From a virus, in the IMG/VR virus record IMGVR_UViG_3300035698_002463, positions 1 through 43,180 of that record: a DNA stretch of 43,180 nt. The stretch is one strand, 5' to 3'. The notes under the pieces were generated by a model, which was not told the origin of the DNA, did not search any database, and worked only from the letters and a program-made list of their open reading frames with translations. The translations under genes were made by a program, and so were the position numbers. This document shows, in pieces, positions 2,414 to 25,412 of the stretch (position 1 is its first letter; the number at the start of each line of letters is the position of its first letter).

Positions 2414-5281
2414 ATGACCGATTTAGATATTCAAAAATTTTTAAAACTTATTAAAGATCCTCTTAAGTTTGCAAATTTATTAAAAAGCCCAGATGATCCT
2501 ACTCAATATTTTATTCCAAGAGATTATCAAAAAGAAGTGCTATCATCTGACAGTAAGAAGATTGCTTTACGTTTTGGTCGTCAGACTGGTAAAACTGTAT
2601 CATTAGTAGCTTACATGACACAATTTGCTATGGTTAGTCCATACAAAAGTATTGTTGTGGTAGCCCCACAGGAAACACATTTACAGAATCTGTTTAATGT
2701 TTTTGAACGTATGGTTTTACAATCCGAATATCTTAAACCTTTTATAGTTGAAAACCACGTAAGAAGAAATCAATCCCCAAGAGTACCATTTACTAATCAT
2801 TCAACAATCTTAGGATTTGTGGCTGGAAAATTGGGAACATCTGTTAGAGGACAAAGAGGAGATTTACTAATACTAGATGAGTGTTTATCTGGTGATACTG
2901 TAGTCTATACAGAATCAGGCCCAAAAGATATTAAAGATATTAGAATTGGTGAAAAGATATTATCTATTACTACTCAAGAAGATATTCAAAACACAGATCG
3001 GTTTGGTTTAAATCTTGAAATCGTTGATAATCATATAGATCAAGCTTATAAAAACAATGATAGTTCTTTAAAACCTATTGATAGAAAATTACATGATCTT
3101 AAAATTTTATCTAAAATAGAACCAGTACATTTTACTACTGTTCAAGATTCTAAATATGTTGGTTATAGAGATCTTTATCTATTTAGAACTGAAACGGGTC
3201 GATATATTAAAGCTACAGGCAATCACCCAATTCCAACAAGAGACGGTAAGTATATTCCTATAGGAAATGCTACAGAAATCGGCATTGTTCCTCAAACAGA
3301 TTTAATATATCAGAATCAAACTCTTAAAGAAATTAGAGCGGCCATATATGGCGCATTAAGAACAGGGCGTTTTCCAAATGATATAGATCAATTTGAAGAT
3401 ATGATTGAACTTATAGGATTAGAAACACCAGAAGCTTTTGGTAGAATCAAAGAAGTTACTAGTAAAGGTAAAAAATATAATCAAGCAATTTTTGATAGGT
3501 ATCCTCCAATTAACGAAGTTCCAGATTGGGTTTTTAGTAAAAAAGAATATGCTGCCGCTTTTATTGGTGGTTATATTGGTTGTTGTGAAGAAATTGTCGA
3601 TGATAATCTGTATCTAAAACGTGCTCTAGAATGGTTTCCTGAACTTGTTGTTTTAAAAGGGAATCTACAATTAAATCAATTAGAATATTTCTTTGATAAT
3701 ATTAAATATAGATTCAATAATTTTGATAACAAACGAGTTTTTAATATTATTGAGTATATACACAGTAAATCAAAACAAGAATTACGAGAATGGTTAAAAG
3801 AAAGATGGCACTCTAATTTTTTATTTGAGAAGATTGTTCAGAAAGTTTATATAGGTTCAAGTAAAGTATATGATCTAAAAACTGAAAATGGTTTATTTGT
3901 AGCTAATAAAGCAATTGTTCATAATTGTGACTATCTAACAGAGCCAGCTTGGGGCTCTATTCTCCCAATTATGAATAACCAAAATACAGTATTATTAATA
4001 TCTTCTACTCCCACTGGTAGAAGAGGCCACTTTTGGAAGATTTTTACAAATCCAGACAGCGGATTTGAAACCCACCATATTCCTTCTTGGTTATCACCTA
4101 CTTGGGTTAGTTACGAAGATGTTAAAAAAAATAATTTACCTCTTAGTGATTCTTCAGAACATCTATTCAGAAACAATTTAGCTCCTGATGAATATATACA
4201 TGAAATTGCTGCTGAGTTTGGTGAACTAAATCAAGGTGTTTTTAATATTGAACGTCTTAATGAAGCATATCTTAATATTAGAGAACAAGATTTAATGAAA
4301 CATTTTCCACCAAGTATAACAGTAATGGGAATTGATTGGAATGGTCGTGGTATAGGAACAGGTATTGTTATTCTAAGAAAAATTACAACTGACACGCAAC
4401 TAGAGAATACCTATATTGGAACAGATGGCAAACAGTTTACTATAAAAAAAGAAATGAGTAATGGGTTTGTTTTAATTCATAGTGAGATGTTGAAAGGAAG
4501 ACTTGGTGAACATCAGGAAGATAGTCTTAAACGTATAATATATCTTAGAAAAAAATACCACGTAAATGGTATATATGCAGATGAAGGATATGGAAATACT
4601 AATATTGAATTATTAAGCAAAGCTGGTAAGAAATTAGAAGATCCTGTTCTATATTATATTCTTGGTATATCACAAAATAGTAATTTTAAATTCTATGACC
4701 CTTCTACTGGTAATGAAAAACCTAAAATGGCTAAGGCTCTTTCTGTGTTTCTATTAGCCCAATTAATTAATAATGGGTTATTTAATCTATCTTATCAACA
4801 TGATGATTTAAATCCTAATAGTTATATATATACTAATAAAGATATTCAAAAAACTAACGTTATAGGTTATCAGCTAAGAGAATATTTTATAAAAGATTAT
4901 AGTTCTAATGGTCAGCCAATTTATAGTAAAAATAATGACCATTTTATAGCGGCTCTTGGTTTTGCTATTTTAGGATATAGTTTAGATTTCGATCCTAAAT
5001 TCCAAGGCGTGGGTATGGAGATATATACCGGAGGAGACACATTTAATATATATTTAGAAAGTCGTATGGAAGCTTCCAATGTTCTACTTAATTTAGCCAA
5101 TATAAAAAATCAAGGATTAGAAGGATTACCATTAATTACACACAATAGTCCTGGCTCTAAACCAATAGATATTTACCAACATAAGATACCCAACATAAAT
5201 AGGACAAGTAAATTTAATGATCGCTCAACAAATAGAAATAAAAATTCCAATTTTAGGAATATCTCACGAAGGCATATCTGA
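2414..5281 (+). CDS. terL: Terminase large subunit precursor with intein
   Basis: The ATP-driven packaging motor and genome-cutting nuclease of the phage. The ATPase domain shows Walker A GRQTGKT (residues 55-61), Walker B LLILDE (151-156, Glu156 catalytic) and the coupling motif ISSTPTG shortly after the intein. The RNase H-like nuclease domain follows, with candidate metal ligands Asp641, Asp723 and Asp842 in precursor numbering. An intein occupies residues 157-504; removing it leaves 607 residues, a usual length for the family, and rejoins LLILDE to CDYLTEPAW. The start has AAGGA a few bases upstream. The last 65 bases overlap the next gene. Until the intein is spliced out the ATPase site is interrupted, so packaging should depend on splicing. 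Confidence 0.95.
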   Translation: MTDLDIQKFLKLIKDPLKFANLLKSPDDPTQYFIPRDYQKEVLSSDSKKIALRFGRQTGKTVSLVAYMTQFAMVSPYKSIVVVAPQETHLQNLFNVFERMVLQSEYLKPFIVENHVRRNQSPRVPFTNHSTILGFVAGKLGTSVRGQRGDLLILDECLSGDTVVYTESGPKDIKDIRIGEKILSITTQEDIQNTDRFGLNLEIVDNHIDQAYKNNDSSLKPIDRKLHDLKILSKIEPVHFTTVQDSKYVGYRDLYLFRTETGRYIKATGNHPIPTRDGKYIPIGNATEIGIVPQTDLIYQNQTLKEIRAAIYGALRTGRFPNDIDQFEDMIELIGLETPEAFGRIKEVTSKGKKYNQAIFDRYPPINEVPDWVFSKKEYAAAFIGGYIGCCEEIVDDNLYLKRALEWFPELVVLKGNLQLNQLEYFFDNIKYRFNNFDNKRVFNIIEYIHSKSKQELREWLKERWHSNFLFEKIVQKVYIGSSKVYDLKTENGLFVANKAIVHNCDYLTEPAWGSILPIMNNQNTVLLISSTPTGRRGHFWKIFTNPDSGFETHHIPSWLSPTWVSYEDVKKNNLPLSDSSEHLFRNNLAPDEYIHEIAAEFGELNQGVFNIERLNEAYLNIREQDLMKHFPPSITVMGIDWNGRGIGTGIVILRKITTDTQLENTYIGTDGKQFTIKKEMSNGFVLIHSEMLKGRLGEHQEDSLKRIIYLRKKYHVNGIYADEGYGNTNIELLSKAGKKLEDPVLYYILGISQNSNFKFYDPSTGNEKPKMAKALSVFLLAQLINNGLFNLSYQHDDLNPNSYIYTNKDIQKTNVIGYQLREYFIKDYSSNGQPIYSKNNDHFIAALGFAILGYSLDFDPKFQGVGMEIYTGGDTFNIYLESRMEASNVLLNLANIKNQGLEGLPLITHNSPGSKPIDIYQHKIPNINRTSKFNDRSTNRNKNSNFRNISRRHI
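2882..3925 (+). mobile_element. Intein within the terminase, degenerate homing-endonuclease region
   Basis: In-frame 348-codon insertion with the hallmarks of a self-splicing intein: Cys at position 1 (CLSGDTVVYT, block A), a block B TxxH motif (TGNH, His271 of the precursor), a block F-like segment VYDLKTENGLFVANK, and the C-terminal His-Asn followed by Cys505 as the +1 residue. All four splicing residues are present, so splicing should be active. Between the splicing blocks, FIGGYIGCC (residues 383-391) resembles one LAGLIDADG helix but lacks the acidic residues of that motif, and no clear second copy is seen. The endonuclease is therefore probably degenerate. The insertion point is immediately after the catalytic DE of Walker B. 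Confidence 0.93.
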
Positions 5282-12533: not shown

Positions 12534-12550
12534 GGAGGAATGTGAACATG
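12532..12550 (+). promoter_or_regulatory. Strong ribosome binding site of the major capsid gene
   Basis: AAGGAGG (12532-12538) overlaps the stop codon of the previous gene. It lies nine bases before ATG at 12548 but only three bases before the in-frame GTG at 12542, so the ATG is the preferred start. Confidence 0.65.
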
Positions 12551-13894
12551 TTTGAAAAACCAAGATTAAGAACAGACTCTCCGCTTTATGATCCTCGTTT
12601 CGTCCAGACTGAAGATGATCTAAAGCGAGTAGAGAATTTATATGATGTTTTCAATAACACTAATTATCTAGTTAAAGATAGTGAACATAAAATGTTTCCT
12701 AATCAGCTAGAATTCAAAGACTTATTTATGAGTGGCGACATTGCTAAATTAGTTGGAAGTGTTGTACAACAGATAACCTATGAAGCCAACATGATTGATC
12801 TTCAAGTGTTACCCAGACTTTTCAAGAAATTGAACGTTAAGACTGGTACACAGATGATCAAAATCAATGCTATTGGTGAGCTTGAAGCTGCCAAGGTAGG
12901 AGAAGGTGGGGAATATCAGGAAAGGTTCCTCGGCGGTGGAACAAAGGAAGCCATTCGAGTAATCACTGAAAAGTATGGTCTTAAATTTTCAATTACTGAT
13001 GAAGCTCTACAAGACGCACAGTTTGATATTGTTGGATTGTGGCTTAGGGCTGCTGGACGCGCTCTAGCAAGATTGAAAGAACAGATGGCAATAAGTTATC
13101 TTAATGCTACTGGTACTGCTCCAATTTTCGATAATACTGGTGCTGCTTCCGAATTAGGTTGTACAACTGGTAGATGTATTACTGGTGATCAGAATGGAAC
13201 TATGACCTTTGATGATCTATATGAATTATATATTCATATGTTCCTCAGAGGATTTACTCCAGATACCATGATTATGCATCCTCTAGCCTGGAGAATCTTC
13301 TCTTATGATACTACTCTTAGAGAAATTCTTGAAAGTGGATCACATCGTAATGCTATGCAAGGTAGCAGTGCTCCTGGTTGGGATACTGGTTTCGGTGGTA
13401 TGGGTCTTAAAACACAAGCAACTGGTTCTGGTAGTGCGATTGGGAATTCTGGACGTGTTGGTGCTAATCCTTGGGTTACTACATTGAACCCACTTGGCGC
13501 TACTATGTATACTAAACCTATCGGTGGTCCATTTGGTTCTTCGTTTGTGATCGTAACACCTTATGCTACAATGTCTATTGGAAATGGCTCTTACACCTAT
13601 GGTGCTGGTCCTACAACTGTATCTGATCTTAATACATTAGATATCATAGTAGCAGATTCTAATAGATGTGGTTTATTTATTGAAGAAAGTAAACCAATGG
13701 TTAATGATTGGGATGATCCAGAAAGAGATATTCAATACATGAAGATCCATGAGAAATATGGGCTGCATCTATTGGATCAAGGTAAAGGCGTAGCTATTGC
13801 TAAGGATATTAACATTGACAGAAACTTTGTCTTTGATAATGCTAATACAGCTACATTAGATCCCATTGATCGTACTGACACATTTGCAACCTAA
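12548..13894 (+). CDS. Major capsid protein (HK97 fold)
   Basis: The main shell protein, 448 residues from the chosen ATG. The sequence has the style of HK97-fold capsid proteins of large myoviruses: an N-terminal helical arm, a region with FPNQLEFKDLFMSG, a central segment EKYGLKFSITDEALQDAQFD (compare the P-domain helix), the spine helix LWLRAAGRALARLKEQMA, and MIMHPLAWRIF with the A-domain beyond. Length is normal. The GTG six bases upstream would add two residues (Met-Asn), but the Shine-Dalgarno spacing favours the ATG. The N-terminal part may be removed by the protease encoded two genes upstream. A strong rho-independent terminator follows, as is common after capsid genes. Confidence 0.92.
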   Translation: MFEKPRLRTDSPLYDPRFVQTEDDLKRVENLYDVFNNTNYLVKDSEHKMFPNQLEFKDLFMSGDIAKLVGSVVQQITYEANMIDLQVLPRLFKKLNVKTGTQMIKINAIGELEAAKVGEGGEYQERFLGGGTKEAIRVITEKYGLKFSITDEALQDAQFDIVGLWLRAAGRALARLKEQMAISYLNATGTAPIFDNTGAASELGCTTGRCITGDQNGTMTFDDLYELYIHMFLRGFTPDTMIMHPLAWRIFSYDTTLREILESGSHRNAMQGSSAPGWDTGFGGMGLKTQATGSGSAIGNSGRVGANPWVTTLNPLGATMYTKPIGGPFGSSFVIVTPYATMSIGNGSYTYGAGPTTVSDLNTLDIIVADSNRCGLFIEESKPMVNDWDDPERDIQYMKIHEKYGLHLLDQGKGVAIAKDINIDRNFVFDNANTATLDPIDRTDTFAT

Positions 13895-13948: not shown

Positions 13949-14009
13949 CTTTAAAACTTAGGTAATATTAAGATAGCATTATATTTTTGTGAACTATGAA
14001 GGAGTAAGA

Positions 14010-14330
14010 ATGATATATTTTAAATTAGTTAAACATTGGTTTTCAAAACAATATAAGACTATCTTCAATAAAAAATATAGAAGACTTAGATTTAAAGATA
14101 TGAGAACAGCTAAAGTATTTATTGAAAGACCAGATAAGTTAATTATAAAAGATTTAAATAAAGGGAAAATTCCTAAAAGAAAATTTAATGATGCTTTCTT
14201 TCATGAGTGTTTAGCTTTAGAAAAGGTTCAAAAACCAGCCGGTGAAATTAGAGATAATATAGTTTTAGCTCTTAAATCGCAATTAAATAGAACAGTGGGA
14301 TCTTCCCCTAGTATTTTAGATATAGGATAA
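14010..14330 (+). CDS. Small basic protein at the start of the neck cluster
   Basis: A 106-residue, highly basic protein (many Lys/Arg in the first 60 residues) with no recognised domain. The in-frame GTG at 13989 would add seven residues, but AAGGAG at 13999-14004 lies between that GTG and the ATG at 14010, so the ATG is chosen. It is the first gene after the capsid terminator. Small proteins in this place in other phages are often head-completion or connector proteins, but nothing in the sequence proves that here. The charge pattern would also suit DNA binding. Confidence 0.7.
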   Translation: MIYFKLVKHWFSKQYKTIFNKKYRRLRFKDMRTAKVFIERPDKLIIKDLNKGKIPKRKFNDAFFHECLALEKVQKPAGEIRDNIVLALKSQLNRTVGSSPSILDIG

Positions 14331-14331
14331 C

Positions 14332-14892
14332 ATGGAATTAGATTCATTAAATAGTATTCTATACGATCCAACCAAGTTAAACGATATTGCTAAAAATCAG
14401 AGATTTATAGTAGATTTTCCTGGTGAAATACAAACATTAGAAATTAGAAAACATAACGTTTTTATCATGGATCAGAATAGCAAAGAAAAGATATATTGTA
14501 ATGTTGGGATAGATGAAGATGATGATAATCAGAGGCTCTATATATATCCATCTAAACTATTAATACAAGAACATAAGATAACTCTGTATATAAATGAAAT
14601 TAGTATATTAATAGATGGTAAAGTAAGTTTAAGTGAGAATAGATATTGGTATTGTACAGTCCAAAATAGATTAGCTCCTTATCCAGACGATCCTCTAGCT
14701 GATTTATACGAAGATACAAGTAATTCTACTACAACAATTACAGATTTAATTTTAGTTAGAACTTTACCAGCATATGGTAATCCCTTCACTGATCCAGATG
14801 ATACTATCATATTAGAATTTAATAAAGCATTAGATTCCACAATGGATATGGCTACATTCATTAAGGTAGAAAAACATCACGTTTTATTTTAA
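14332..14892 (+). CDS. Neck-region protein ending in the first half of an Ig-like domain
   Basis: A 186-residue protein. Residues 1-120 are beta-rich with no recognised family. The last ~50 residues match the first strands of a bacterial Ig-like (Big_5 type) domain: a hydrophobic strand, then DPDDTIILEFNKALDSTMDM and the strand TFIKVEK, after which the protein stops nine to ten residues later. A complete domain of this type needs about 50 further residues, and those appear at the N-terminus of the protein encoded at 17820-18698, beyond an intervening 968-residue gene. The start follows the previous stop by one base with only a weak GGAT upstream. A head-tail connector role is inferred from location. 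Confidence 0.75.
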   Translation: MELDSLNSILYDPTKLNDIAKNQRFIVDFPGEIQTLEIRKHNVFIMDQNSKEKIYCNVGIDEDDDNQRLYIYPSKLLIQEHKITLYINEISILIDGKVSLSENRYWYCTVQNRLAPYPDDPLADLYEDTSNSTTTITDLILVRTLPAYGNPFTDPDDTIILEFNKALDSTMDMATFIKVEKHHVLF

Positions 14893-14910
14893 TCTAAAGG
14901 AGTATAAATT

Positions 14911-17817
14911 ATGATTAGAAAAATATTGAGTCCAGTTGATCTTATAATCGATAGTCAAAATATTAGTAAAGATACAGTAACTTCATTATCATCTGATATT
15001 AATTATCCATCAATTATACCTTTTCAAGCTATAGATGATGATTCAGATATAGTATATAATGGATATATATATGAAACAAGCAGCCCCATAAGCCGTATAT
15101 ATGATGTAACTGGTATTCCTGAAACAATTCAGAATGATACTATAACAGTTCTATTAGTAGATAGTGCCGGTAATCCATCATCTGGAACAATCCGTTTCCA
15201 TGTTGGACCAAAGGGCTCTTCTGAATTTACTCCTATTACAGTTGATACAATTACTGTTGCAGGTATAGCCAGTTATACCTTTACTCAAGGTTTATATGTT
15301 AATAGAATTGATGTAGTTAATACCTTTATATCGCCAACTGGCGAGCCCTATCAAACAATCTCAGCAGTAGAATACAGTACTTCTATTATTGATGAATCAG
15401 CTAGAGTCTTTATTATCCAGCTTACAGATTTAACTCTTCAATATGAAGTAGATTCATCAGTAGAATATGTTGGAATCATAGATGCTGTCACTGGCGTTTC
15501 TATTGGTTTATATACTGTAGATAGTGGGATATTCTATACTGATAGAAACATTACTGGATATAGAGCCATATTATTTGGCAGCACTATAGAACCATACTAT
15601 ATTGCTCAAGTTCCTACAGGTAATGATCTAACAGCATATACACCATTAATAGCTGCTGGAACTGCTCCCTATACAGTAGATTCTGTTGTAGTTGGATTTA
15701 CTCCAACAGGATTAGTTATACATGATATTCTTGGTATATTTAAATTCGTTACACCTTTCACTGGAACCTATGAAAAATTTGGAGTAGAAGCTAGTGACTA
15801 TGTAAGAATAAGTGTTGATGGACACACATCATATTATGGTTTATATAGTGAGTTAACAGGAGTAGACGCTCTACTTAACGAATTAGATTTCATAGAAGTA
15901 ACTGTAGACGATGGAACAGATCCAGTAGAAGATGCTCTAGTTGTTACCAATTTAGGAACATCTATTACTAATTCAGATGGTTTATCTTATTTCGTAGACA
16001 CTTCTCCATCTACAGGCATAACAAATTTAGAAATATATAAATTTGGGTATGAAACATATATTGCCGGGATTATTCCAGGCCACACATATAGTTTAACATC
16101 TCTTGATACAGAATCTGTTCAAATTATTGTAAATGATGAAAGTGGCGAGCCAATCAAATTTGAATATTCTGTTAGACAAGTTGATACAGGTAGCACCGTC
16201 TTTACTGGATTTGGAGATGGTCAGATTATATTAACAGCTATTGATCCTGAGAAAACTTATTTAATAACTGTTGGTTCTTATGGTTACAAACCACTAAGTG
16301 AGTTGTTTGTAGGCACTTCTCTTAAGAACATAATTCTTGTATTAGAAGAGACCAATGTATCTATTCGAGGCGACATCATATTAAACATCTATGATGAATC
16401 TACTGGACGTAAACTCAATGATGTTAATGTTGAACTAGATGATTTAGAAACTAACTATTTCAACTCTAAAACAGATAATTATGGTATAGTTATCTTTAGT
16501 GATGTTATTGTAGGTAAGACTTATAATCTTAAATTAACTAAGGATCATTATGGATATTATGTTGGTAATATCACATTACCTGCTGATCATAGTTCAACTA
16601 TAACGTTTGATCCAATTACTGTTCAGAATAATATAGATCTTTCTTATAGCATGACCCCATCTGTAACACATCCTATTCTAAGTATATCATTAGGATTAGA
16701 ACCAACATATTCCCAAGAGTCAGTTAACATGACTAGTAATATTACTGATGTAAATATTTGGACTAGTATTAATTGGCTGGGGGCTCTAGGAGAAACTAAA
16801 TCAAGTGGGATAAACATTTTCCAATCAGGAAGATTTATCATCCCTAAAAATCAACAGTTTACATTTGGTAGTAATATTTCTACTACTACTAAGGGTGGAC
16901 TAATAGATGATTATATTGTTATTCCTGGTACTATTAATGAATTAGGAGATTACTATAAACTAACTATTGGTGATTCTGTAACTAATTTCACTAATATGAA
17001 ATCGTATAGTTTTACAAAATCTAATATATCTGAAGGTATAGCTTTATACTTTGCTCAGAGTGCAACCATTACATTAGAATTAGAAGTTAATAATTCTTCA
17101 TTAACAGACTATTCATTTGTTATCACATCAGATTTCGATACTCCTATTATCAGTTATGATCAGTCTACTCTTACTATTACAGGATATCTTAATCTTCCTT
17201 ATACTATCACTGTTAGAGGCCCTGGTGTTTATTACACAGGAAAGGTAGTCTTCTCAAGTACATCATGTAAGATGAATATCCCAACAAGCAGTATCCCACA
17301 ATGTGGGTTAACATTAATTGTTGCAGATGCTTTTGGAGAAGTCATACCATCATTATCTGTATTAGTTACTGTTATGAATACAATCAATGGTGGATTAGGG
17401 GGCTCTCTATCAGAAACAATTAAAAGTTTTATAACTAATACTAAAGGAGAACTTATTTTAGATGCTCCTTATCATTCAATATTTACGATTCTAAGCCAAA
17501 ATGATACTTATCCTTTCCTAGGCTTCGGGACAGTCCCTGAGAAGGAGCAGGCAACGTTAAGAATAAGTGCTAATGGTTTAGCTAACGATGTTTATACTTA
17601 TCAGCTAACAGTCAATTCTGTGAACGTGGAGGCTGCTTCAGTATGGATCACATTAGATTTAGAAGGTAAGTATACTATTGCTGGACCAAAGACAACAGAT
17701 TCTTCTGGTAATGTTTCTTTTAATTTGATTAGTACTCTTGGAGTAGTATATGCATGGGCTAATAAGACAGCAAGTAACATAATTAATCATGTTGAATCCT
17801 GGGATTTAAACTATTAA
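14911..17817 (+). CDS. Large multidomain Ig-like / carboxypeptidase-regulatory-like structural protein
   Basis: A 968-residue, beta-rich, acidic protein built from repeated domains. Segments at about 77-150, 328-395, 402-475, 486-560, 799-870 and 896-968 show the pattern of carboxypeptidase-regulatory-like or Ig-like folds: V.V.D..G.P, then T(D/N)..G, then a hydrophobic strand and Y.L or Y.I. Such domains form adhesive fibres or collars on phages. There is no signal peptide. AAGGAG at 14897-14902 gives it a strong ribosome site. It lies between two genes that together seem to encode one Ig-like domain, so it may be a later insertion. Possible roles are a neck whisker, a collar or a capsid-exposed fibre binding cell-surface glycans; none is proven. 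Confidence 0.82.
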   Translation: MIRKILSPVDLIIDSQNISKDTVTSLSSDINYPSIIPFQAIDDDSDIVYNGYIYETSSPISRIYDVTGIPETIQNDTITVLLVDSAGNPSSGTIRFHVGPKGSSEFTPITVDTITVAGIASYTFTQGLYVNRIDVVNTFISPTGEPYQTISAVEYSTSIIDESARVFIIQLTDLTLQYEVDSSVEYVGIIDAVTGVSIGLYTVDSGIFYTDRNITGYRAILFGSTIEPYYIAQVPTGNDLTAYTPLIAAGTAPYTVDSVVVGFTPTGLVIHDILGIFKFVTPFTGTYEKFGVEASDYVRISVDGHTSYYGLYSELTGVDALLNELDFIEVTVDDGTDPVEDALVVTNLGTSITNSDGLSYFVDTSPSTGITNLEIYKFGYETYIAGIIPGHTYSLTSLDTESVQIIVNDESGEPIKFEYSVRQVDTGSTVFTGFGDGQIILTAIDPEKTYLITVGSYGYKPLSELFVGTSLKNIILVLEETNVSIRGDIILNIYDESTGRKLNDVNVELDDLETNYFNSKTDNYGIVIFSDVIVGKTYNLKLTKDHYGYYVGNITLPADHSSTITFDPITVQNNIDLSYSMTPSVTHPILSISLGLEPTYSQESVNMTSNITDVNIWTSINWLGALGETKSSGINIFQSGRFIIPKNQQFTFGSNISTTTKGGLIDDYIVIPGTINELGDYYKLTIGDSVTNFTNMKSYSFTKSNISEGIALYFAQSATITLELEVNNSSLTDYSFVITSDFDTPIISYDQSTLTITGYLNLPYTITVRGPGVYYTGKVVFSSTSCKMNIPTSSIPQCGLTLIVADAFGEVIPSLSVLVTVMNTINGGLGGSLSETIKSFITNTKGELILDAPYHSIFTILSQNDTYPFLGFGTVPEKEQATLRISANGLANDVYTYQLTVNSVNVEAASVWITLDLEGKYTIAGPKTTDSSGNVSFNLISTLGVVYAWANKTASNIINHVESWDLNY

Positions 17818-17819
17818 TT

Positions 17820-18698
17820 ATGCCCAAAAAATTAATTGTAAATATTGTTACCCCTTCTATCTCAACTCCTGTTGCTATACCTGTTGTTTCTGTAGCAACA
17901 ACAGGAGATTTCAATATTGTTATTAATGGTAAAAGAATTGAGATCACACCAAAAGAAACTTTACCATATAATTGTGAAGTAGGAATTGAAATTTCTTCTG
18001 GATTGCCTGCTCAAGATGGCACGGTATTAGCTGATGATATAGATTACTTTTATACAACACATTATAATCCTTATTATTCAACTCCAACAATGGTTAGATT
18101 AACAGAAGGCATTGGTATTTGGATTAAGGATGTTCCTAATGATACTATATGGAGAACCATTTTAAAAAATAGTATGTATGCTGTTAATAAATGGGATAAT
18201 GGTAACGATAGATTGGTTATCAGTGGAACAAATATACCTTATTGTTTGCCAGAATTTGTTACATATGCTACCGTCTTAGATCTTATGAGTTATATAATGT
18301 TCTATCTAATAAGCAATGCGGGCTCTAAGAGATTAGCTGATTTATCAATAACAAATAATGGGCCTTCTTCTTTCCAAGGACCTTTTAGTGAATTTAGACA
18401 ACATGTTGTTAAAAAGTTTGAGGAATTAGAACGTCTTGTAAAAATCAAATGCACACCACCTGGCCCAAGACAAGGTATTAGATCTATAGATTTCTGGGAA
18501 CCTCAACCTATTATCCAATATGATAGAACTTGGAAGAGATACCCTAAAGTAGATAGAATCAATTCTGCTTGGAGTAAGATGTATAGACATAGCCAATATA
18601 ATGTTAATCTAACTAATATTGATAATGCTTATGATAGAGGTGTGTTGGTTGTTCCAAAGTCTAAATCTGGTGACTTCACTAGTTGGACACCTCAATAG
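17820..18698 (+). CDS. Neck protein beginning with the second half of an Ig-like domain
   Basis: A 292-residue protein. Residues about 29-78 match the closing strands of a Big_5 Ig-like domain: GDFNIVINGKRIEITP, then TLPYNCEVGIEISSGL and a DG..L..D..YFYTT ending. The opening strands are missing and occur instead at the end of the protein encoded at 14332-14892. After the domain comes YYSTPTMVRL, which recalls phage neck proteins in which an Ig-like domain leads into a connector domain with a PLYST..DVR-like joint. The C-terminal half is mixed helix and strand. The ATG is two bases after the previous stop and has no good Shine-Dalgarno site, unlike most neighbours. Function as a head-tail joining protein is inferred. 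Confidence 0.75.
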   Translation: MPKKLIVNIVTPSISTPVAIPVVSVATTGDFNIVINGKRIEITPKETLPYNCEVGIEISSGLPAQDGTVLADDIDYFYTTHYNPYYSTPTMVRLTEGIGIWIKDVPNDTIWRTILKNSMYAVNKWDNGNDRLVISGTNIPYCLPEFVTYATVLDLMSYIMFYLISNAGSKRLADLSITNNGPSSFQGPFSEFRQHVVKKFEELERLVKIKCTPPGPRQGIRSIDFWEPQPIIQYDRTWKRYPKVDRINSAWSKMYRHSQYNVNLTNIDNAYDRGVLVVPKSKSGDFTSWTPQ

Positions 18699-19992: not shown

Positions 19993-22900
19993 ATGCCAAT
20001 CCCAAGTGTAACTACAACATATCATGACAATAACTTAGGAATGCTCGCTAGTACTCCAAATACTCGTAAAAGCATATATCTTATTGGAACATCAGAAGAT
20101 GGTCCAATGCATGAACCAGTCTATATTCAGTCCTTAGGAAGAGCTAAGGAAATATTTGGAGACATAAGCAAAGGTAATCTTGTTAGAGCCGTTGCTGAGT
20201 TATTTGACGTACCTGGCAATAAAAGAATTTACTGTATCCGTATAGGTGATGGACGTAGATCTAGTTTGTCCTTAAAGGAACAGACTGGTTATAGTGGAAT
20301 TAATACTCCAACAACCACATCAGTAGGTGATATTAGTACTGCTTTATCAATAGAAGCATTGTATCCTGGTGAAATATATAATAGTACTGTTATTGGATAT
20401 GAAGTTTTAGAAGATTATGGAACAGTTCTATACTTCTACAATCCAGTAACAACCACTAAATCTTACTTCAAGTATAGCACAGATGCTGATGATACTAGTG
20501 TAACAATACACAATGTTAAAGATCTTGAAGATGCAATGAATAATGATCCCAATATTGCTCCATGGTATAGGATTGCAGCTAATACAATCACAGCATCCTT
20601 CGAATGCTGGGTTCTACCAGCTACATCTAATACCGATTATGGAACCGCAGGATATGGTAAATCGTGGAATACTTTGATTCATACTGATGGTGTGCTTCCA
20701 TCAGAATGGTCTGATGGATTTTCCTGGGATGGTTATACTGCACAATTCTCATTGTATGATAGAATTGTTGGTGGTTCTGGAGAAGCTGATGATGATGCTA
20801 TAGAACATCCTGGAAATGTTCCTGTAGGATGGGAGGTTCTAAGAGATGGTATGGTTTCAGGAACCGGCCCTGTTAAAGCAACCGAAACAGCTGTTAATAA
20901 TATTAATAGTTTTAATAAGTTCTACACTTTAGCCTACACTGGTCAAACTTATGTAGATAGTATCACTCCAGATAATAGATTAGATCCGATGCCCTATAAT
21001 ACTAGGGGAACAAGAGGCTATACAGTCGGGGCTATGAACATTTATAGCTACGATGGTCTACAACTAAAAAGACCCAATACATCTCCAGTTAATGAAATTA
21101 TACCTACTGAAGAAGATATTAGTACTTGGGCTTCTGAATACTCTTTATGGTTTGAGAATCAACCTATTAATATAGGTGCAGGTAATAATGGTTATCTTAA
21201 CTTTGGGTGTTTTCTACCTCCAGACTTTAGTGGTTTCCCAAGATATTGGGCAAGACAAATATTCCCAACAGAAACAACTGATCCTTTAAGCAAGATTCTT
21301 ATTGGTACTCCTTTTAAAACTCAGAGCTACGAAGCAACTGGGCTAACAGTTAATGAATCAACAATGTATTCTCCTCATGATGCACAACAGTATAAACTAG
21401 ATGCGCAGACTTCTGGAGTGTATGATTATTGGTTTGGTGTTACTAGAGAAGGACAGAGAACTATTGGTACTGATGAGTTCCTTACCTTACCACCTTTTGC
21501 TCTTGTTAAAGGTAGTACTATAACTAGAGAATATCCTTATGAAGATTATGCTGTTGCTTATGATGAAAGTGATACAACTAAAGCACCATCAGCATATTTT
21601 CCTGTTCCTGCTGCTCTATGGACTTCTAGTAATGCACATCAATATAGCGCATATTTCTTAGGTCCACTATCCCCATCGTATATCTATAGGAATTTAGCCT
21701 ATGATTATGAAGGATCTACCTATGGAACTATTACTTCTAAGCCTTTGCTAGTAACACATAATGGCACAGATAATAGATATGATGTATCTTTTGCTGTAGG
21801 AACCGATATTGATGTTAGTCCTAGTGCTGCTATGACTACAGATCCAAACTATCTCAGACATTCTGTTAGAATGGAAACTGATAAATATTTCCCTGATACT
21901 GATCTAGATAGTGATGAAGGGTTAAATCCTTCTGCTAGAGCATGTGTTCTACCAGTAGAAAAAGGAGTCATTAGCACTTATGGTGGGTTTGAAGTGGATG
22001 AAGTTACTGGCAAGTCGGCTAGTGCTCTAGAAATAACATTAGATAATGGTGATACAAAGACTTTAGGAGCATCTGATAATGGTTCTTTAATTGTTTTTGC
22101 TAATAGAATATATCAGTACTTTAATACTGGGGTAGCCGAATTAGGACCAACCCCATCTTATTATGGATATGTGGCTCCTGTAGATATGGATGGTGCTTAT
22201 GTTATTCTAGTTCCAGATGCTCTTAATACAGCTAACGCATATCACTATGCTGAGATATTAGCTGGTGATGGAGATTATCAGTTCTATACAGAGAATTATG
22301 CAGATAATTCAATTCCAAGATTTGAATATAGTCTTGATGGTAGCAACTGGGAAGAAGTAGAACCAAGATGGATCTCTGGTATATTCTGGGAAGATAATGG
22401 CCAGCTCTATCCTAATGATAACAATGCTACTAATAGACTAAAAGTATTCTTTGTAGGGTGCGACTCTACACAAGCTCCCAGAGATGGAGATTCATATGAA
22501 TATCTAGGATTTGAGAATACTATGTGGAGTCAATGGAAGGCATTGTGGGAATCTGAAAAGGTTACATATCCTACATTGACTACTAGGTATCCTAATCTAG
22601 ATACTTTTTTTGTAGCTGCTGACGGAACAGTTCCAGCTATGACATCTATAATTGAAGCAGAATTCTTAGCATGGGCTAATGACACTGTTCCTCCCTTTAT
22701 GGAAGTAGATAAAGATGGAGAATACTTAACTGTAAAGTCTGATGCTTATTTCAGATATTCTCTAATAACCAATAAAGGTCATCTAAAACAATGTTATATT
22801 AGAACTACTGCCTCTAATTCTAATAGATCAGATTATTACTTTATCTATGGTAACAGAGTCCTATTTGGTTCTGTACCTACTACAAAGTTGATCTTCTCTT

Positions 22901-24030
22901 ATCTAACTAAACAAGATTATAGAGAGAACATTGACTATGTATACGATACTAATGGTATTATCACATTTACTAATGATGAGAAATTACCATTTGGTAACGA
23001 GTATAGTGCCTATAAGAGATTCTTAATAGGTCTTGAATATGAATATACTCCAGAATGGTTTGATCTATCTGCTAATAGGACATTGTATGGTGGCACATCT
23101 GGAATCAATGTTGAATTAGCTGATAGATATCAGGAGCTAGAAGATGTTCTAGATCTGATTGAGGATTTTCCTCCAGAGATTCTTGTTCCTGTAGATTTCT
23201 ATTTAGATGATATCCAGGAAGATTATTCTGTAAAAACTGGTACTAAATACTATAGAAATGCTGGTTTATATAGCATACTAGATCCATGGCTAGAGAAGGT
23301 TAATAGGAATTCTTGGACTACTAGAGCGGTCATCCCAATTAAGAATCCAGAAGATTTAACCCTAGCAGGTATCCAAGAATGGGTTAGAAAAGGTAGCACT
23401 GTATCTGTTTCAGATACTCTTAGAGCGGCTAATGTGTTAGCTCAGGTAGATAATAAATTTATCGATTACTTTAGTTATCCAATGGCTTTCTCTAGTGGAG
23501 GTATTACGTTTACTGTTCCTGGTCAATGTTTCTATGCTGGTAAATTAGCTGTAAATGCTCTGCCTACTCTACCAACTAATCAAAGCCTTAGTAATGGTTT
23601 TAGACCATTAATTACAATGAGGAAAACATTAGTAGATAAATTAGTAACAGCTAGAGTTAATACTATTATTTATAATGATGGTATGAGAAATCCTTATGTT
23701 ATAGCTGACTTTGTTACTGGTGCAGCTTATGGTAGTGATTATAGTAGAGGTCTAAATCGAGAGATGGCTTGCGAAGCAGTGAAACACTGCAGGGAAATAT
23801 GGAATGAGTTTAAAGGAAAGGTTCAGAGTAGCAACTTGATGAAAGTCTTTGAATCTAAAATTAACAATGCTTTAAACAGTATTCCGGCTATCAAACAAGT
23901 TATGATTCAAATTAAACAAACTGAACAAATGAGAGTTAACGGTGAACTAAATCTAATCATAGATATTATACCATTAAACGAATTTAGACACTTAACAATT
24001 GATCTTTCCTTTAAGAGGGAATCAGAATAA
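19993..24030 (+). CDS. Tail sheath protein, unusually long
   Basis: The contractile outer sheath of the tail. The N-terminal 90 residues show the family pattern: SIYLIGTSEDGP, a turn, FGDISKGNLVRAVAELFD and a strand ending RIYCIRIGDG. The C-terminal region from about residue 1100 to 1345 is the conserved domain that attaches subunits to the tube and each other, with NSWTTRAVIPIKNPEDLT, a segment around GLNREMACEAVKHCREIW (about 1250) and the final beta hairpin ELNLIIDIIPLNEFRHLTIDLSF. At 1345 residues it is about twice the length of a typical sheath (roughly 400-700). The extra ~900 residues in the middle are beta-rich, aromatic and Asp/Tyr/Gly/Thr-rich, with no family recognised. They probably decorate the outside of the tail. 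AAAGGAG precedes the ATG. Confidence 0.9.
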   Translation: MPIPSVTTTYHDNNLGMLASTPNTRKSIYLIGTSEDGPMHEPVYIQSLGRAKEIFGDISKGNLVRAVAELFDVPGNKRIYCIRIGDGRRSSLSLKEQTGYSGINTPTTTSVGDISTALSIEALYPGEIYNSTVIGYEVLEDYGTVLYFYNPVTTTKSYFKYSTDADDTSVTIHNVKDLEDAMNNDPNIAPWYRIAANTITASFECWVLPATSNTDYGTAGYGKSWNTLIHTDGVLPSEWSDGFSWDGYTAQFSLYDRIVGGSGEADDDAIEHPGNVPVGWEVLRDGMVSGTGPVKATETAVNNINSFNKFYTLAYTGQTYVDSITPDNRLDPMPYNTRGTRGYTVGAMNIYSYDGLQLKRPNTSPVNEIIPTEEDISTWASEYSLWFENQPINIGAGNNGYLNFGCFLPPDFSGFPRYWARQIFPTETTDPLSKILIGTPFKTQSYEATGLTVNESTMYSPHDAQQYKLDAQTSGVYDYWFGVTREGQRTIGTDEFLTLPPFALVKGSTITREYPYEDYAVAYDESDTTKAPSAYFPVPAALWTSSNAHQYSAYFLGPLSPSYIYRNLAYDYEGSTYGTITSKPLLVTHNGTDNRYDVSFAVGTDIDVSPSAAMTTDPNYLRHSVRMETDKYFPDTDLDSDEGLNPSARACVLPVEKGVISTYGGFEVDEVTGKSASALEITLDNGDTKTLGASDNGSLIVFANRIYQYFNTGVAELGPTPSYYGYVAPVDMDGAYVILVPDALNTANAYHYAEILAGDGDYQFYTENYADNSIPRFEYSLDGSNWEEVEPRWISGIFWEDNGQLYPNDNNATNRLKVFFVGCDSTQAPRDGDSYEYLGFENTMWSQWKALWESEKVTYPTLTTRYPNLDTFFVAADGTVPAMTSIIEAEFLAWANDTVPPFMEVDKDGEYLTVKSDAYFRYSLITNKGHLKQCYIRTTASNSNRSDYYFIYGNRVLFGSVPTTKLIFSYLTKQDYRENIDYVYDTNGIITFTNDEKLPFGNEYSAYKRFLIGLEYEYTPEWFDLSANRTLYGGTSGINVELADRYQELEDVLDLIEDFPPEILVPVDFYLDDIQEDYSVKTGTKYYRNAGLYSILDPWLEKVNRNSWTTRAVIPIKNPEDLTLAGIQEWVRKGSTVSVSDTLRAANVLAQVDNKFIDYFSYPMAFSSGGITFTVPGQCFYAGKLAVNALPTLPTNQSLSNGFRPLITMRKTLVDKLVTARVNTIIYNDGMRNPYVIADFVTGAAYGSDYSRGLNREMACEAVKHCREIWNEFKGKVQSSNLMKVFESKINNALNSIPAIKQVMIQIKQTEQMRVNGELNLIIDIIPLNEFRHLTIDLSFKRESE

Positions 24031-25015: not shown

Positions 25016-25028
25016 AGGAGATTCATTG
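25016..25028 (+). promoter_or_regulatory. Ribosome binding site setting a TTG start for the nuclease-like gene
   Basis: AGGAG at 25016-25020 is five bases before TTG at 25026. This spacing supports initiation at TTG, which keeps the whole N-terminal membrane segment in the product. Confidence 0.6.
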
Positions 25029-25412
25029 GTAGTTAATATTATAGCCTTATCATTATTAGTAATAACAATTTTAACTAACATAATTTTATATCACTATTTA
25101 AAGAAAACAAAAACTAACTTAGATAAGAAAGAATCTGAGAGGATTAAAATATTAGATGATCTTAGATCTGAAAGGACTAAACGTGGAATGATGATAGAGC
25201 AGATATTACCATTTAAAAAAGATATTGGATTTAACATAGATAATTTCAAATTTTTAGGACAACCAATAGATGGTATCGTATTTGAAGAAGATAAGATTAT
25301 TATAGTAGAATTTAAAAGTGGTAAAGCTCGACTAAGTAAGAAACAGAAAGAAATTAAAACACAAATAAACCAACATAAAGTAGAATTTAAGGAAGTGCGA
25401 TGTTCAGGTTAA
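25026..25412 (+). CDS. Membrane-anchored Holliday-junction-resolvase-like endonuclease
   Basis: A 128-residue protein with one hydrophobic N-terminal helix (about residues 4-24), a charged linker, and a C-terminal domain that matches the Endonuc_Holl family, related to archaeal Holliday junction resolvases of the PD-(D/E)XK superfamily. Visible active-site pattern: Glu58 in EQILPF, FLGQPIDGIVF with Asp82, and VEFKSGK with Glu95 and Lys97, followed by a basic helix. Cleavage of branched DNA is expected from the family but not proven. It starts with TTG, sits just after a terminator and overlaps the next tail gene by 13 bases, which ties it to the tail operon. A nuclease with a membrane anchor is odd here; it may act at the cell envelope during entry. 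Confidence 0.8.
   Translation: MVVNIIALSLLVITILTNIILYHYLKKTKTNLDKKESERIKILDDLRSERTKRGMMIEQILPFKKDIGFNIDNFKFLGQPIDGIVFEEDKIIIVEFKSGKARLSKKQKEIKTQINQHKVEFKEVRCSG

Follow-up and report, generated by a model that had tools for sequence, protein, structure and literature searches.

An Ig-like domain of a phage neck protein apparently encoded in two pieces on either side of an adhesin-like gene

Bacillus phage vB_BauM_KLEB27-3 encodes, between its capsid and sheath genes, a neck protein (gp021; Accession No. OM634661) that is homologous to the two proteins described here, as do approximately 30 relatives from IMG/VR (e.g. L008 and L072; L numbers denote the loci compared in this study). These proteins differ from the pair described here in that each is one unbroken chain with complete Ig1, Ig2, and adaptor domains. 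In Moorella phage MTATph1 (CDS0014/CDS0015; Accession No. OR602862), Ig2 is broken in the C-D loop and distributed to two genes as in our window, but the genes are only 15 nt apart, carry no cargo between them, and are annotated as two hypothetical proteins. The neck adaptors of HK97 (gp6), SPP1 (gp15), Mu, and phage 812 have a helical fold like that of the C-terminal part; however, they are single chains, for which neither an Ig2 half nor a break has been described. The adaptor of phage 812 has an outer beta-sandwich, and densities on its neck were taken as whiskers (PMC12886913), by analogy with which an Ig-like shell carrying appendages on the adaptor ring is plausible. In Bacillus phage 0305phi8-36, a module of virion genes (orfs 126-134) that includes curly-fibre candidates is absent from BtI1, and one of its junctions lies within orf135, at a domain boundary (PMC2147016). 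This module is removable and consists of virion genes, and it is probably located beside the capsid gene in a phage of this lineage, but a split Ig domain is not mentioned in that study (PMC2147016). In Campsomeris mitochondria, cox2 has been divided into genes for two complementary chains with approximately 3 kb of other ORFs between them (PMC5374615); this is a single organelle case, whereas the division described here is recurrent, lies inside one virion Ig domain, and is accompanied by structural cargo. No published description of a split neck Ig domain was found in the open-licence literature.

The window, i.e. the whole 43,180-base stretch analysed here, is a fragment of a contractile-tailed phage from a virus record and contains genes for the terminase, portal, capsid, neck proteins, a 1345-aa sheath, and more tail proteins. 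The split-neck region is located between the capsid gene (12542-13894) and the sheath gene (19993-24030). Its three ORFs, which encode proteins of 186, 968, and 292 aa, have the coordinates and strand motifs given in a preliminary description of this DNA (Table 1), which had also correctly read a strong ribosome site (AAGGAG) before the 968-aa gene and a poor one (GGA) before the 292-aa gene. Because only this GGA is present and the 292-aa gene starts 2 nt past the TAA of the 968-aa gene, translation of the former is probably coupled to that of the latter. The protein encoded by the next neck gene (192 aa) is, to judge from gene order, probably the stopper/head-closure protein.

Table 1. Features of the split-neck region (coordinates are those of the window).
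Feature	Coordinates	Strand	Basis
Gene for the N-part, 186 aa: divergent Ig1 and linker, then Ig2 strands A-C at the C-terminal end	14332..14892	+	fused-only profile; L072 model
N-terminal half of Ig2, residues 131-186	14722..14889	+	A-B-C sub-profile
AAGGAG ribosome site of the 968-aa gene	14897..14902	+	read from sequence
968-aa cargo gene separating the two halves; product beta-rich and adhesin/fibre-like	14911..17817	+	SpaA, Big_1, and PHROG tail fibre matches
Stop-start junction TAA-TT-ATG, without a good ribosome site	17815..17822	+	read from sequence
Gene for the C-part, 292 aa: extension at the N-terminus (1-28), then Ig2 strands D-G and the head-tail adaptor	17820..18698	+	profile; AlphaFold model
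C-terminal half of Ig2, residues 30-82	17907..18065	+	Big_5 59-105, 14.6 bits alone
Helical head-tail adaptor domain, residues 85-210	18072..18449	+	structural matches
Next neck gene, 192 aa	18683..19261	+	adjoins the adaptor gene 3' in many loci; PHROG virion structural 5.6e-4

Several other features of the window were observed. The terminase gene (2414-5281; 955 aa) shows, by eye, an intein-like interruption (CLSGDTVVYTESGPKDIKDIRIGE ... FVANKAIVHNCD); a terminase intein has been reported in the related phage BtI1 (PMC2147016). The 1345-aa sheath compares with sheaths of 357-665 aa in three isolate relatives and is similar to these at its ends only. A 128-aa gene located between two tail genes (25026-25412) encodes a protein with a membrane segment at its N-terminus and a part that is possibly nuclease-like (IDGIVFEEDKIIIVEFKSGKARL). 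Finally, a 113-aa frame (13989-14330), which begins with GTG, lacks a ribosome site, and matches only a PHROG homing-endonuclease family weakly (E 0.12), may not be a gene as called.

The preliminary description had proposed that a Big_5-type Ig-like domain is divided between the genes flanking the 968-aa gene. The two proteins together tile, without overlap, a profile made exclusively from fused relatives (the fused-only profile): the 186-aa protein covers positions 16-200 (29.8 bits, against 1.3 for the best of 50 shuffles), and the 292-aa protein covers 218-431 (100.6 bits). Against strands A-C of the fused relatives, profiled separately, the tail of the 186-aa protein scored 16.2 bits (best of 100 shuffles, 8.2); it contains the strand-B motif TIILEF and the strand-C motif TFIKVE, after which the protein ends; the motifs of the remaining strands, FNIVI (D), RIEITP (E), CEVGIEIS (F), and IDYFYTT (G), are found in the 292-aa protein. 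When compared separately with Pfam Big_5 (PF13205), the 186-aa tail gave no match and the 292-aa part gave 14.6 bits (profile 59-105). The cut-off was reached only when the halves were joined, i.e. 25.9 bits over positions 4-105 against a gathering score of 23.6, in a joined sequence that omits residues 1-29 of the 292-aa protein (22.6 bits with them). The proposed division was therefore borne out, with the refinement that, of two Ig domains, it is the second (Ig2) that is broken; a full but divergent Ig-like domain (Ig1) precedes the half domain in the 186-aa protein. In an AlphaFold2 model of the fused relative L072, obtained with a 36-row alignment (mean pLDDT 80; approximately 95 in Ig1 and 90 in Ig2), Ig2 forms a seven-strand sandwich (A, 152-156; B, 180-184; C, 199-205; D, 220-224; E, 228-232; F, 247-253; and G, 269-275) after which come the helices of the adaptor, and the Ig matches were CopC-like and S-layer-like. 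Since the 186-aa protein ends at the equivalent of L072 residue 207 and the 292-aa match restarts at residue 220, the break in the window is placed in the predicted C-D loop of Ig2. That the two genes arose by fission of a single ancestral neck gene (Ig1-Ig2-adaptor) is thus well supported at the level of sequence.

In an AlphaFold model of the 292-aa protein alone, strands were predicted at the places of D, E, F, and G, together with the adaptor helices. The four strands form a half sandwich of moderate confidence (pLDDT 80-90), and residues 1-28 are poorly predicted, with a possible low-confidence strand at residues 4-10. Structural comparison of residues 85-210 using VIA-align identified the necks of phage 812 (Z 9.6 over 123 residues, rmsd 4.6) and Mu (Z 8.9) and HK97 gp6 (Z 7.2), values to be read with caution because Z is under 13 for helical domains; phage necks nevertheless made up nearly all of the top rows, and these residues have the helical adaptor fold. 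Foldseek alone gave no match under 0.001 for the 292-aa model and listed HK97 gp6 and the Sf14 neck weakly. The 292-aa protein matched none of the adaptor sequence families, its relatives weakly matched PHROG Ad1 (E 0.0046) and DUF4054 (E 3e-4), and a sequence-profile search of the PDB with the adaptor returned nothing meaningful. Judging from the predicted fold, the 292-aa protein should be a head-tail adaptor that forms a ring on the portal.

Direct searches of the phage and IMG/VR collections with the 186- and 292-aa proteins detected no relatives, and none was confirmed in IMG/VR contigs when KLEB27-3 gp021 and the Moorella C-part were used as queries. Relatives were reached by way of the capsid protein, with matches in Bacillus phage KLEB27-3, Moorella phage MTATph1, and Acinetobacter phage ME3; the capsid alignment then gave 80 IMG/VR contigs and four bacterial genomes. 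A profile search identified an adaptor-region homologue of the 292-aa protein in approximately 50 of these loci. Identity is low, at most 28% over the adaptor, and the window has no close relative. The existence of homologues in which the flanking proteins are one polypeptide had been set beforehand as a test on which the proposal could fail. Such homologues were found and are in the majority (32 of the 47 rows of the tree described below): Ig1, Ig2, and the adaptor are on a single chain in KLEB27-3 gp021 (492 aa) and in approximately 30 contig proteins, mostly of 450-600 aa.

Fourteen of the 47 loci are split, and the break sites are confined to the C-D and E-F loops of Ig2. The halves are separated by 10 nt to 11 kb, and the cargo comprises fibres, decoration genes, and an endolysin. 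C-D splits are present in MTATph1 (L003), in L006 (22-nt gap), and in three Bacillota genomes, namely Oceanobacillus (L086; 18 nt), Alicyclobacillus (L087; 327 nt with a 94-aa gene), and Paenibacillus (L103; 2,326 nt with three genes). E-F splits are present in L078 (10 nt), L050, L059, and L060 (60, 51, and 20 nt, respectively), L057 (1,386 nt), and L100, L101, and L102 (11,036, 10,442, and 10,238 nt, respectively); the C-parts of L100-L102 and Paenibacillus were found by applying the adaptor profile to whole records. Among the cargo products of L100, a 613-aa protein matches families of tail fibres and head decoration in PHROG (best 8e-54), and one of 1017 aa matches a tail fibre (2e-15). 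In another three contigs (L024, L053, and L070), an N-part with the same ending was found, and no C-part up to the end of the contig. The gap of L057 (12803-14190) holds a lysis-like set, i.e. a peptidase M15 gene (Pfam 1e-12), a holin-like frame, and a 177-aa gene.

Extra domains precede the half Ig2 in the C-parts of L086, L050, and L100-L102. The one in the Oceanobacillus C-part (L086:18990-20096), weakly MG2-like, has homologues that lie between the halves as genes of their own, namely the 198-aa gene in Paenibacillus (L103:4349-4945; 1.5e-9) and the 94-aa gene of Alicyclobacillus (L087:18918-19202; 5.6e-5), indicating that the content of the C-D break can be either a domain in the chain or a gene of its own. 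In Acinetobacter phage ME3 (L004:16561-18601), an Ig-like gene (350 aa), a 95-aa gene, and an adaptor gene (235 aa) lie in a row, which is another, different division of the neck protein; both proteins match the fused model in BFVD. Two models of the A7KUQ series in BFVD, with accessions eight numbers apart, also match the fused model; if this series is that of 0305phi8-36 proteins, a split of the kind described here may also be present in the type phage of the lineage. The neck protein is whole in L010 (12021-13448) and broken in the near-identical L011 (12021-13431) by a frame difference in the adaptor domain, probably a sequencing error or fresh mutation. Stop read-through was considered for the Moorella phage and rejected in view of two in-frame stops and a ribosome site between the genes, and a group I intron or ribozyme was rejected as there was no Rfam match.

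The tree of the adaptor region contains 47 rows (32 fused, 14 split, and one other). The distribution of split and fused forms requires at least five changes, or seven when the two break sites are told apart. The placement of all split rows in one clade was rejected (p-AU 0.0009), as were single clades of all C-D rows (p-AU 0.021) and of all E-F rows (p-AU 0.012), although these values are guides only because several branches, including that of the window, are long and the groups were named from the trait. On these data a single origin is rejected, and the split appears to have arisen repeatedly. The position of the window itself is unsupported. L100-L102 form a supported clade with L050, L059, and L060, and since L102, the first to branch off, has cargo genes with homologues in L100 and L101, the simplest reading is that L050, L059, and L060 probably lost their cargo yet stayed split. 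The fused KLEB27-3 protein sits amid split Bacillota rows, for which re-fusion and separate splits are both possible.

All 16 N-part tails scored 13 to 40 bits on the profile of strands A-C, and none of 100 shuffles of each scored as high; on the same profile, fused proteins scored without relatives of >40% identity gave 0.3 to 43 bits. The tails stop abruptly after reaching strand C or E, and the pattern of the fused proteins is kept in 16 of 16. In L050, L059, and L060, pN/pS is 0.16-0.30 in the half domain compared with 0.30-0.48 in the rest of the N-part, ratios that are rough because synonymous sites are near saturation. By these measures, the split half-domains are under purifying selection. 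In an Ig sandwich, strand B pairs with strand E in one sheet, and strand C with strand F in the other. A break in the C-D loop therefore leaves both sheets common to the two chains, and neither half should be stable alone. As a useless leftover would be expected to decay, folding of the conserved halves together in trans, which the preliminary description had suggested, is the best explanation of their retention and is likely. The E-F class calls for caution, as the C-parts of L050, L100, and L101 also align upstream of strand F; in this class, overlap between the halves or replacement of strands is possible.

The 968-aa protein has one SpaA prealbumin-like domain (23.7 bits against a Pfam cut-off of 23.1; 5.5e-5) and weak matches to Big_1 and to a PHROG tail fibre family (E 0.11), and is rich in T, S, V, and I. 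Direct searches for its homologues in the phage and IMG/VR collections found none. A recent foreign origin was rejected, as the GC content (0.326) and GC3 (0.168) are within the range of the neighbouring genes, and an anchor domain common to this protein and the domains inserted in the C-parts of relatives did not rise above shuffles. The protein is most likely an adhesin or fibre displayed on the virion; by analogy with the islands of L100-L102 it is likely a virion appendage, and we infer its location to be the neck.

We favour, with a probability of roughly 0.78, fission in the C-D loop of Ig2 with the halves rebuilding this domain as a non-covalent heterodimer on the neck. The ancestral neck gene would have been cut in its second, Big_5-type Ig domain. 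The 292-aa protein, as the adaptor ring on the portal, would supply strands D-G, and the 186-aa protein would supply Ig1 and strands A-C, so that Ig2 would be restored in trans on the outer side of the neck. The 968-aa gene would be cargo of the late structural operon, its product made in step with the C-part through coupling. The modest score of the 186-aa tail, the half sandwich predicted for the 292-aa protein alone, and the alignment of some E-F C-parts before strand F count against this reading. A rather unlikely alternative is that the fission is real and the halves do not pair. In that case the N-part tail would be a leftover or would pair elsewhere (with itself as a dimer, with Ig1, or with a strand donated by the cargo protein), and the C-part would close itself with its N-terminal extension or an inserted domain. 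The low-confidence strand at residues 4-10 of the 292-aa model and the extra domains in the C-parts of L086, L050, and L100-L102 are consistent with such closure, but the sharp and uniformly kept ends of the N-part tails and the low pN/pS of the half-domains argue for pairing, and L006, L078, and L003 keep both halves with little or no inserted domain. An origin of the whole pattern in chance similarity to Ig strands, or in assembly or frameshift errors, might be suspected from the low identities and from the L010/L011 pair, which shows that frame differences occur in such contigs. It is nevertheless highly improbable, given that the profile matches and the strand A-C tails passed the shuffle controls, that the break recurs in an isolate, bacterial genomes, and independent contigs, and that the genes have their own ribosome sites, with the two in-frame stops in Moorella and the negative Rfam result pointing the same way.

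The order of events is a separate matter. The preliminary description had supposed that insertion of the cargo gene into an intact Ig2 caused the split; we place this at somewhat below even odds relative to fission first and insertion later at the new boundary. In the clade of L100-L102 the cargo appears ancestral and the cargo-free L050, L059, and L060 are nested inside, so that cargo-free splits can be remnants of cargo loss. On the other side, L003, L006, L078, and L086 are split by 10-22 nt with no cargo, and for the window, with its unsupported tree position, there is no empty-site relative. The 968-aa protein may dock at the split domain, as the preliminary description had imagined. Beyond the favoured heterodimer, the split Ig2 might act as a clasp that captures or licenses the fibre or decoration cargo encoded between its halves; we regard such a clasp as unlikely.

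Gene fission and fragment complementation are each known already. In the present case, several lineages carry cuts in one virion Ig domain, placed in the same two loops, and both pieces have been kept, even across up to 11 kb of structural cargo. These loci, i.e. fused, split, split with one gene, and split with an island, provide a natural series for how appendages enter a virion operon, as well as ready natural split-Ig pairs, the halves of which automatic annotation leaves as unrelated hypothetical proteins. If the split Ig2 does act as a clasp, the break would be the site at which exchangeable neck appendages enter the genome and also the site at which they dock on the virion.
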